In this document: positions 50,115 to 53,297 of the stretch, piece after piece | Layout of the letters: every line of letters starts with the position of its first letter | Position numbering within the stretch: position 1 is the first letter of the stretch | NCBI GenBank assembly: GCA_937872175.1 | Contig: CALMPI010000017.1 | Coordinates: 248,001-312,000, forward strand | Reading direction: 5' to 3' | DNA: 64,000 nt | Origin: an uncultured Flavobacteriales bacterium | GTDB taxonomy: Bacteria > Bacteroidota > Bacteroidia > Flavobacteriales_F > PHOS-HE28 | Made by a program: the position numbers and the translations under genes | The notes under the pieces: generated by a model | Databases searched by the model: none | What the model was told of the DNA's origin: nothing | The model's input: only the letters and a program-made list of their open reading frames with translations

Positions 50115-51686
50115 ATGCGCCACCTGCTCGCCACCGCGCTCGTCCTGCCGCTTGCTGCGGCCGCACAGATCACCACGCCCACCTGGAGCGCGGACATCGC
50201 CTGCATTGTGTTCTCCCATTGCGCCCCCTGCCACCGTGAAGGCGGGGCGGGCCATTTCCCGCTCACGAGCTTCGTGGAGGCCTTTCCGTACCGCAACGAC
50301 ATCCGCGATGCCACCCAGCTGCGCCTGATGCCGCCTTGGCCGCCGGACGAGGACTACCGCAGCCTGGCGCACGAGCGCCTGTTGACCCAGGACGAGGTGG
50401 ACCTCATCGCGGCCTGGGTGAACGGGGGTGCTCCGGAAGGGGACCCGAACCTGGCCCCGCCGCCACCCGTCTTCGCCAGCGACTGGGTGATCGCGCAGCC
50501 GGACATCACCGCGCGGATGGAGGAATACGTGGTGCCGCCCTCCACCAACGACAACTACCGCTGCTTCGTGCTGCCCATCAACAACCCCACGGACCGCTTC
50601 ATCACCGGCTTCGAGGTGGTGCCGGGCAACACGGCGGTGGTGCACCACGTGCTCGTGTTCACCGATGAGACCGGCCAGGCGGCCCAGCTCGATGCGGGCG
50701 ATCCCGAACCGGGCTATGCGAGCTTCGGCGGCATCGGGGTGTCCGGCGCGAAGCTGGTGGGCGAATGGGTGCCGGGGGCCGACCCCTACTTCACACCACC
50801 CGGCATGGGCCTGCCGCTGCCGGCCAACGCCGACCTGGTGATCCAGGTGCACTATCCGGCGGGCAGCACCTTCGCAATGGACAGCACCCGCGTGAACCTG
50901 CAGCTGTCGCCGGGCGGCTTCGTGCGTGAGATGGCCCTGGACCCCATCCTGGAACATGGGGCCACGCTGATCGACGGTCCCCTGGTGATCCCGCCCAACG
51001 TGGTGAAGACGTTCCACAACCAGTACACGGTTCCCATCCCGGCCACCATCACGGCCATCGGCCCGCACGCTCACCTGCTGTGCACGCGCATGAAGGCCTA
51101 CGCCGTGCTGCCGGGCAACGACACCGTTCCCCTGATCGACATTCCCGAGTGGGATTTCCGCTGGCAGGGGCTCTACGCGTTCCGCAAGCCGATCTTCCTG
51201 CCCACGGGCACGGTGCTGCATGGCGAGGCCACCTACGACAACACCACCGCCAACCCGGACAACCCCAACGACCCACCGCAGTGGGTGACGCTGGGCGAGG
51301 CCACCACCGATGAGATGATGCTCTTCTACTTCGGATGGACCTTCGGCCTGGCCTCCGATACGCTGATCGTGGTGGACACCGCCGCGCACGCCGCGCATCA
51401 TCTGGACTGCGAACCTTCCACGCCGGTGGGCTTGCCGGACCCGGCGGAGGTGGCCGATCCGCGTGTGCATCCCGTGCCCGCCGACGACCAGGTGTTCCTC
51501 TCCGGGCTGGCCGGCCCCGGCACGCTCGAGCTGCGCGATGCCGCAGGACGGCTCTGCGGGCGCTGGAGCGTGCGCGGCCATGCGCATTCGCTCGATCTGC
51601 AGGACGTGAAGAGCGGGGCCTATATCGCGCTGCTGCGGGATGAACGCGGCCAGGTGATCCAAAGCGCCCGCGTGCTGAAGCGATGA
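50115..51686 (+). CDS. Heme c plus copper type II monooxygenase-like surface protein with T9SS C-terminal domain
   Basis: 523 residues. The signal peptide ends LAAAA before Gln. A c-type heme site CAPCH is at residues 36-40 in a short cytochrome segment. Residues about 130-420 match the peptidylglycine/dopamine monooxygenase copper fold with every ligand present: H177-H178 (VVHHVLVF), H246 (IQVHY), H318 and H320 (GPHAHLL) and Met401 or 402 (DEMMLFYF). Residues about 445-523 form a type A T9SS domain (VHPVPADDQVFLSGL). It probably oxidises an unknown substrate at the cell surface, with the heme as electron entry (inference). The stop overlaps tadA (ATGA). Confidence 0.87.
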   Translation: MRHLLATALVLPLAAAAQITTPTWSADIACIVFSHCAPCHREGGAGHFPLTSFVEAFPYRNDIRDATQLRLMPPWPPDEDYRSLAHERLLTQDEVDLIAAWVNGGAPEGDPNLAPPPPVFASDWVIAQPDITARMEEYVVPPSTNDNYRCFVLPINNPTDRFITGFEVVPGNTAVVHHVLVFTDETGQAAQLDAGDPEPGYASFGGIGVSGAKLVGEWVPGADPYFTPPGMGLPLPANADLVIQVHYPAGSTFAMDSTRVNLQLSPGGFVREMALDPILEHGATLIDGPLVIPPNVVKTFHNQYTVPIPATITAIGPHAHLLCTRMKAYAVLPGNDTVPLIDIPEWDFRWQGLYAFRKPIFLPTGTVLHGEATYDNTTANPDNPNDPPQWVTLGEATTDEMMLFYFGWTFGLASDTLIVVDTAAHAAHHLDCEPSTPVGLPDPAEVADPRVHPVPADDQVFLSGLAGPGTLELRDAAGRLCGRWSVRGHAHSLDLQDVKSGAYIALLRDERGQVIQSARVLKR

Positions 51687-52132
51687 TCCAGGTGGGCGGC
51701 GATGAGCATTGGATGCGCCAGGCCCTGCGCGAGGCCGAGCGCGCCTTCAGCCTGGACGAGGTGGCTGTGGGCGCTGTGGTGGTGTGCCAGGACCGCATCA
51801 TCGCCAAGGCGCACAACCTTACCGAGCGGCTCAACGACGTCACCGCCCATGCCGAAATGCAGTGCATCACCGCGGCGGCCACGCACCTGGGCGGCAAGTA
51901 CCTCGCGGACTGCACGCTGTACGTCACGCTCGAGCCCTGTGTGATGTGCGCCGGGGCTTTGCGCTGGTCGCAGCTGGGGCGGCTGGTCTTCGGTGCGTTC
52001 GATGAGAAGGCCGGCTACCGGCGCATCGGGGCGAGCTTGATGCATCCCAAGACCCAGGTGACCGGCGGCGTGCTGGAGCCCGAGTGCGCGGACCTGATGA
52101 AGGCCTTCTTCCGGAGGAAGCGGGCGTTGTGA
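51683..52132 (+). CDS. tadA: tRNA-specific adenosine-34 deaminase
   Basis: 149 residues. TadA converts adenosine to inosine at the wobble position of tRNA-Arg. The zinc site is VTAHAEMQCI (His and catalytic Glu) and TLEPCVMCAGAL (two Cys). GAFDEKAGYR and the basic C-terminal helix AFFRRKRAL are typical. It overlaps the preceding gene by 4 nt. Confidence 0.93.
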   Translation: MIQVGGDEHWMRQALREAERAFSLDEVAVGAVVVCQDRIIAKAHNLTERLNDVTAHAEMQCITAAATHLGGKYLADCTLYVTLEPCVMCAGALRWSQLGRLVFGAFDEKAGYRRIGASLMHPKTQVTGGVLEPECADLMKAFFRRKRAL

Positions 52133-52266
52133 GCTCAGGGAGCTGGGTGTGCCACACGCAGAGGCGCAGGGAACCCAGAGCAACTTCGAACCCTTCTCGC
52201 GAGCAGCCCGAAGGGATGCGTGGCGATCTCCTTCCTGACCGTCATCGCGAGCCGGTCCCGTAGGGC

Positions 52267-52352
52267 CGGCGTGGCGATCTCCCTGGCCAATGATCGGAGC
52301 ACTTCCAGGGAGATCGCTTCGGCGCCAAGGCGCGCCTCGCGAAGACGTGTTG
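52267..52352 (+). repeat. Outer repeat, copy 1, with a 13-bp hairpin
   Basis: GCGATCTCCCTGG (52274-52286) and CCAGGGAGATCGC (52305-52317) are perfectly complementary. The unit ends with CTCGCGAAGACGTGT, echoed by copy 2. A further half unit, GCGTGGCGATCTCC, occurs at about 52219. Confidence 0.75.
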
Positions 52353-52357
52353 GGTTG

Positions 52358-52722
52358 GCGTGGAGCGTTCCACGCGCAGGAGGGGCGTTCACGCGGTCAA
52401 GCCCCCTCCTGGGCAGCGATCGCTCGCTGCTCCCATCAAGGAGGGGCACGGGGCGGTTTCCTCGTTCATCAATTATGCGGCATGACTGGGTTGATACCTC
52501 CCCCGGCGCCTCCTTGCCCGGCGCGTGGAGCGTTCCACGCGCAGGAGGGGAGTTCACGCCATCAAGCCCCCTCCTGAGCAGCGATCGCTCGCTGCTCCCA
52601 TCAAGGAGGGGCACGGGGTGGTTTCCTCGTTCATCAATTATGCGGCATGACTGGGTTGATACCTCCCCCGGCGCCTCCCTGCCCGGCGCGTGGAGCGTTC
52701 CACACGCAGGAGGGGTGTTCGC
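52358..52722 (+). repeat. 165-bp tandem repeat, 2.2 copies
   Basis: Units begin at 52358, 52523 and 52688 (partial, about 35 bp), each with GCGTGGAGCGTTCCAC. The two full units differ at only a few positions. Each holds a nested hairpin (52403-52446 and 52568-52611): CCCCTCCT pairs with AGGAGGGG, and inside it GCAGCGA pairs with TCGCTGC. Each also starts with a small palindrome, GCGTGGA/TCCACGC. Confidence 0.9.
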
Positions 52723-52731
52723 GCGATAGTC

Positions 52732-52817
52732 GGCGTGGCGATCTCCCTGGTCAGTGATCCGATCTCTTCCGGGAGATCGCTTCCCCTGCAAAGCCAGGCT
52801 CGCGAAAACGTGTCGGG
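52732..52817 (+). repeat. Outer repeat, copy 2
   Basis: A direct copy of 52267-52352 with several changes in the loop and flank. The stem (GCGATCTCCCTGG at 52738-52750 with CCGGGAGATCGC) is kept apart from a single bulge. Confidence 0.7.
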
Positions 52818-52845
52818 AAGATCACCCGCCCATCCAGCTCCGCCC

Positions 52846-53277
52846 TCAACGCCCGCCCAGTGTGCGCCGTTTCCGCCGGGCCTTGGCCAGCTGTTCCTGC
52901 GCGAGCACCTCGTTCAGCGCGACGGCCTGCTGGATCAGGCGGCGCAGGGCGCCCTCGGGCAAGGGACCTGGGGCCGGCGGCGGGAGGTAGTGCCGGATCT
53001 GCGCGTGGTCCGTTCGGGCGAACAGCCCCTCGGGGTCGCCTAGGTGCACGCCCTCCACAAAGCCCAGCACCAGCCCCTTCTTCTGCAGGCTGAGGTAGCA
53101 CATCCAGCGCCGGTGTTCATAGAACGGGATGCCGTACTTCCAGGTCTCCGCCATTCGGGGAGAGGCCTCCAGCAGCAGGTCGCGCAGGCGCAGGGCCTGT
53201 TCCTGCCACGGAGCGGGCAGCCCCTCGAACCAACCCTGGATGCGGGTGGTGGAGGGCACGGGACGAGAGGTGGGCAT
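52846..53277 (-). CDS. DUF1801 domain protein
   Basis: 143 residues from ATG 53277; the much longer frame upstream is a shadow of the bacilliredoxin gene. The domain runs from TTRIQGWFEGLPAPWQEQAL through ASPRMAETWKYGIPFYEHRR and MCYLSLQKKGLVLGFVEGVH, the usual DUF1801 pattern. A basic C-terminal tail (LAKARRKRRTLGGR) may bind nucleic acid or simply be unstructured. The domain's biochemical role is unknown. It is divergent from the bacilliredoxin gene. Confidence 0.88.
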   Translation of the reverse strand: MPTSRPVPSTTRIQGWFEGLPAPWQEQALRLRDLLLEASPRMAETWKYGIPFYEHRRWMCYLSLQKKGLVLGFVEGVHLGDPEGLFARTDHAQIRHYLPPPAPGPLPEGALRRLIQQAVALNEVLAQEQLAKARRKRRTLGGR

Positions 53278-53297
53278 GTGCCCCTTGACGGACCCGT

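Follow-up and report, generated by a model that had tools for sequence, protein, structure and literature searches.

A probable intergenic mosaic of two REP-type palindromic repeat families in a Flavobacteriales sub-clade

The BIMEs of enterobacteria are mosaic clusters of palindromic units, and the locus described here resembles them. CGTC-type REPs are widespread and, to our knowledge, have no known mobilising enzyme. The CGTC-tagged REP superfamily forms head-to-head dimers and includes RPE-4 and RPE-6 of Rickettsia and dRS3 of Neisseria (Di Nocera et al. 2013, PMC3733652). REPINs with RAYT transposases are another related system (PMC3116915); like them, the present array consists of inverted stem-loop doublets that are dispersed, extragenic and hairpin-forming in single-stranded DNA. 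The array lies in a window of 64,000 nucleotides from contig C17 of a 4.3-Mb draft genome (G000). It is probably an intergenic mosaic of two REP-type palindromic families, A and B: non-autonomous dimers that were amplified within one sub-clade of a Flavobacteriales genus, built up on one another and serve as sites of recombination.

Repeat B starts with CGTC-AT (CGTCATCGCGAG at 52240) and carries GACG at its opposite end. It shares with the CGTC REPs the inverted head-to-head dimer form with CGTC on the outside, a location mostly at the 3' ends of genes and the lack of a dedicated transposase. In contrast to these REPs, its loop holds a hairpin of about 16–20 nt, whereas a CGTC REP has a stem of 8–9 bp and a loop of 4–5 nt, and its tail is CTCC(C) rather than the CCA-like consensus. 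As judged from sequence, B appears CGTC-like without being a proven superfamily member: tag, dimer, location and the lack of a transposase fit, but loop length and tail do not. In the CGTC REP study, some families have other loop lengths, and units with unusual loops were discarded (PMC3733652). Repeat A is an inverted doublet of stem-loops like the GTAG REPs and REPINs, but it has no terminal GTAG, and no CGTC tag either, ending instead in TCAAGCC / GTTCA. This second dimer family, as yet without a name, has the ends TSAASNCCCCTCCTG, carries terminal inverted repeats of about 15 nt and has no coding capacity.

The array occupies the gap between two convergent genes and carries no genes itself. 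It starts about 60 bp (60–61) past the stop codon of a gene for a TadA/CMP-dCMP-type deaminase (51683..52132, + strand; Pfam PF14437, E=1.5e-32, and PF00383, E=3.3e-28), which has orthologues in 55 of 58 relatives. It ends about 36 bp short of the stop codon of the convergent gene, which encodes a DUF1801 protein (52846..53280, - strand; PF08818, E=1.5e-14). The initial annotation was thus wrong to state that no protein gene is near. Open reading frames of 218 and 169 amino acids cross the array because 165, the tandem period, is a multiple of three; neither has a Pfam match, and a protein-coding array was rejected. Close to the deaminase gene, the motif CACGCAGAGGCGCAG (52149–52175) is a dispersed direct repeat; several relatives also have it 3' of tadA, and it is present again in other gaps (loci L085, L087 and L088).

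All repeats of the array are given on the + strand. On the left, a half copy of B (52193..52231), belonging to a 14-nt direct repeat family (D5), forms a single CGTC-like stem-loop, CTTCTCGCGAGC[AGCCCGAAGGGA]TGCGTGGCGATCTCC. It is followed by a complete B (52240..52347, with GACG at 52344–52347), defined by its fold and by BLAST against its own genome. Next come the 34-nt 3' tail of a truncated A (52358..52391), consisting of hairpin 2 and CAGGAGGGGCGTTCA and belonging to a 38-nt family (D2) that is 92–100% identical, and two complete copies of A (52397..52556 and 52562..52721). On the right is a B without its first third (52730..52810; 82–86% matches to full B), which has lost CGTCATCGCGAG... 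and breaks inside hairpin 1. The junction GATAG(C/T)CGGCGTGGC that joins it to A is also found at C3:3308. The initial annotation had placed the inner units exactly between two copies of a hairpin repeat. B-type hairpin blocks indeed flank them on both sides (52267–52354 and 52731–52817, 79–86% identical), but the exactness does not hold, as the left side has a complete B plus a half copy and the right B is truncated.

The tandem spans 52358–52724 with a period of 165, 2.2 copies, 95% matches and a TRF score of 671. Two full and one partial unit had been proposed and are present: the full units are 96% identical, and the third match covers the first 38 nt only. The 165-bp period is correct, but not its phase. 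When the phase was reset from the element ends across all genome copies, the natural unit of A became a 160-nt palindrome, TCAAGCCCCCTCCTG...CAGGAGGGGNGTTCA. The predicted nested hairpin of about 44 nt was also recovered, at 52403..52446 in the left half of A copy 1 (CCCCTCCTG[GGCAGCGATCGCTCGCTGC..]AAGGAGGGG), from both sequence and fold.

A and B share one plan, an inverted pair of REP-like stem-loops with an extra hairpin in each loop. Each folds on its own as a four-way cloverleaf, and z-scores of the folds range overall from -3.6 to -6.3. The RNA fold of A copy 1 has an energy of -88.1 kcal/mol (z -4.4; DNA fold z -4.6). That of B with short flanks (52229–52357) has an energy of -76.1 kcal/mol (z -6.3) and contains a four-way junction; the B DNA fold has a z-score of -4.4. 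The hairpins nested in the halves of A have unrelated stems that are still complementary (GAGCAGCGA/TCGCTGCTC, GCGCGTGGA/TCCACGCGC, GTCCGGCGGA/TCCGCCGGAC, GTCGATCGA/TCGATCGAC and GCGTGTGGA/TCCACACGC) and a common loop form, GA-NNNC-TC. Pairing extends to 87% of positions, compared with 67% (sd 4%) when the 3' arms were re-dealt (maximum 81% of 5000). In the copies read, the hairpin in one half of an A differs from that in its other half.

Both repeats are dispersed in their own genome, where the counts, obtained by pattern and BLAST searches, are all lower bounds. The A core has 16 exact matches, against 0 for a reversed control pattern, and 2 matches within the window, where 0.00 are expected. 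For the B core there are 28 exact matches and 47 with at most one mismatch, against 3 at that level for the reversed control, and the full B (52240–52347) has at least 36 BLAST matches. The ends of A are sharp, recurrent and constant across the copies read in the genome, and full B copies at C17, C18, C34, C36 and C41 are inverted dimers. Independent A tandems occur at C36, at C30 and in the relative G025. All 14 exact genome copies of hairpin 2 fall inside A, which makes this hairpin part of the A element; the hairpin as an independent nested element was therefore rejected.

Other small repeats accompany A and B. Some A copies (G000:C36:139330–139770, G000:C30:75640–76290 and L127) have in their right arm an additional sequence, TGTCCGCCATAGCGAAGCGACGGCGGAC, from another small palindrome family. 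The palindrome TGTCCCGCC(C/T)CAGCGGGATG recurs beside A and B sites in intergenic regions of C36, C37, C45 and C34. Pattern matches in named genomes are mainly to MAGs labelled Flavobacteriales or Bacteroidetes, and the assignment of the window's genus to the Flavobacteriales rests on such near relatives. A bare half-A core (e.g. CCCCTCCTTAGCAAGGAGGGGCAGGGGGTGGTTTC) without the inserted hairpin was seen at L116 and L119 in a MAG of the gammaproteobacterium Thiomargarita, and at L121 in Pedobacter aquatilis, which belongs to another genus of Bacteroidota. The occurrences in Thiomargarita and Pedobacter suggest that the half-A core is old or horizontally shared, and the hairpin-free cores hint that the hairpin insertion was a later addition.

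A and B occur next to each other far more often than expected by chance, and they do so at the 3' ends of genes. With the exact pattern, B lies within 300 bp of A at 7 of 12 A loci, although such a distance covers 0.5% of the genome (binomial p ~5e-14 genome-wide, and ~4e-7 if just 10% of the genome is available). BLAST revealed further A–B neighbours at C3:1002, C18 and C8. Exact B–A junctions recur at unlinked loci, indicating that composites are copied too. A general rule that A is inserted precisely within B was rejected, as the junctions vary between the B centre, the B hairpin and the A hairpin; adjacency alone is claimed.

Among 45 genomes of the genus, A cores are present in eight (16 in G000, 9 in G026, 6 in G025, 3 each in G033 and G014, and 1 each in three others) and are frequent only in G000, G026, G025 and G033. 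A slightly looser 13-nt pattern finds 41 B cores in G000 and 6–13 in G023, G025, G026 and G033; the remaining genomes have 0–6, mostly 0–4, which is near background. The TadA proteins of these four relatives are 95–99% identical to that of the window, and the next genome is at 86%. Because the enriched relatives are also the nearest by TadA identity, the amplification looks like a sub-clade event, with G000, G023, G025, G026 and G033 enriched for both repeats. The genome and a few close relatives contain both units elsewhere.

Orthologous sites were compared in the relatives. In G000, the gap between two convergent genes at C36:108340 holds two A units; this gap has no A in G023, G025 and G033, nor in G026 as far as the contig end. 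The site in the relatives has neither an A nor a B repeat. It is the single orthologous site found to lack A, and no target-site duplication is readable in its repeat-rich flanks. No A was present 3' of tadA in the relatives read (G026 for 188 nt to the contig end, G033, G025, G023 and G005); G026, G033 and G025 show other, B-like remnants there, and G023 and G005 have different genes. The suggestion of a mobile palindromic element, MITE- or REP-like, is well supported by the dispersed copies with constant ends, the four relatives that lack the element at an orthologous site, and the inverted-dimer architecture.

A segment of about 10 kb in G000 (C18:13725–25580) is inverted relative to G026:C30:90000–100800, G023:C2, G033:C88 and G025:C210, and B clusters lie at both breakpoints in G000. 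Two B sites there are separated by about 10 kb, and their four flanks (L14/R14 and L24/R24) are re-paired in all four relatives. A single inversion unique to the G000 lineage and bounded by B clusters would give this pattern; mis-assembly is less likely because the two clusters differ in sequence. The idea that the repeats are recombination sites is upheld in this limited sense.

RAYT, the obvious candidate for an enzyme that moves the repeats, found no support. None of 33 RAYT (Y1-transposase) loci in the genus has an A within about 1.5 kb, and one of the 33 has a single B core with one mismatch. A RAYT-mobilised REPIN was rejected because the RAYT loci are without A and, with that one weak exception, without B. 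About half of these loci carry a GACCCC..GGGGTC palindrome instead, which is also found around the RAYT (Y1_Tnp) gene at L051 (G000:C4:6256–6597) and is a third REP family, probably the one cognate to RAYT. A search for phage or plasmid carriage of the repeats gave no matches, and such carriage was rejected. The literal core sequences of A gave no match in the papers searched.

Most probably, single-stranded hairpin forms of A and B would have been mobilised in trans by a nuclease or transposase encoded elsewhere and, within one sub-clade, inserted as new copies into further intergenic regions, chiefly at the 3' ends of genes. A and B would have come to sit in or beside each other, and A at the window locus would then have been duplicated in tandem. 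Homologous recombination between near-palindromic copies could next line up units in tandem, form composite copies and cause inversions. The repeats might also influence the 3' ends of mRNAs. The recurrence of identical B–A junctions means that some copies may instead stem from gene conversion or segmental duplication of composites. That such recombination between repeat clusters accounts for all copies, with no transposition, is improbable. The shared composite junctions at unlinked places, the tandem A and the inversion at B are what it would produce, but A stands without a nearby B core at C36:108340, C30, C37:64557 and C45, and the relatives' C36:108340 site has no A or B to recombine with. 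We are similarly doubtful that a conventional DDE transposase mobilises A as a MITE through its terminal inverted repeats. The 160-nt length of A, its terminal inverted repeats and its absence of coding capacity agree with this, the chance ORFs across the array being without a Pfam match; against it, no target-site duplication was seen in the repeat-rich flanks, and A is palindromic over its whole length with nested hairpins, unlike typical MITEs.

The cloverleaves might also be kept for a role as RNA: at the 3' ends of converging messages they could work in both directions, either terminating transcription or shielding those ends. In favour of this, the array is flanked by convergent genes whose stop codons are 36–61 bp away, most of the 13 other sites examined have at least one gene pointing its 3' end at the repeat, and the folds are very stable with compensatory changes in the arms. 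We nevertheless consider this reading unlikely. There is no U-run 3' of the stems (0 terminator-like sites), so that an intrinsic terminator was rejected; the repeats are missing at the same place in close relatives and hence are not needed there; and selection on hairpins in DNA accounts equally well for the covariation. Nor did the earlier suggestion of a specific structured RNA find an Rfam family: the whole window, A included, has 0 matches at the gathering score, and a single hit below threshold, with 15.9 bits where 105 are required, is noise. An assembly artefact is very improbable. Contigs C8, C10, C17, C40 and C45 end in A, which is usual for repeats in draft assemblies, but the two A units differ at fixed positions, which argues against collapse, and the tandems at C36, C30 and G025 are independent.

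Within the proposed mosaic of two REP-type families, there is a slim chance that A and B are substrates of one trans-acting nuclease that recognises single-stranded DNA with a four-way junction and favours other cloverleaves as targets. If so, one enzyme would explain the shared architecture, the interchanged side hairpins, the mutual nesting and the amplification of sequence-unrelated A and B in the same sub-clade. A small clade is enriched in both a CGTC-like REP and a similarly shaped family, and its relatives do not have them at the orthologous positions, which makes it a tractable setting in which to seek the enzyme that mobilises CGTC-type REPs. The genome also shows a case in which short palindromic dimers mark the two ends of an inversion; apart from that, this is routine repeat biology.

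Compared with known systems, A differs from REPINs in having no linked cognate RAYT, and the RAYT genes of the genus depart from the REPIN case in carrying another palindrome, neither A nor B (PMC3116915). A parallel in organization is offered by the NIMEs, made of dRS3 and RS repeats, in which an intergenic CGTC-class repeat is likewise interleaved with a larger second repeat and which are proposed recombination points (PMC3898611). The sequences are different, the copies far fewer, no phage link was found, and A is itself a dimer and can stand alone; the dRS3 motif that flanks RS repeats in NIMEs (ATTCCC N8 GGGAAT) does not occur in the array. As a mosaic it behaves like the neisserial intergenic mosaic elements without being one. 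In contrast to BIMEs, it has two unrelated unit families, and its units are cloverleaves rather than simple stem-loops. The locus thus looks like a variant of the familiar REP-type repeats that is specific to one lineage, and not a new kind of system.
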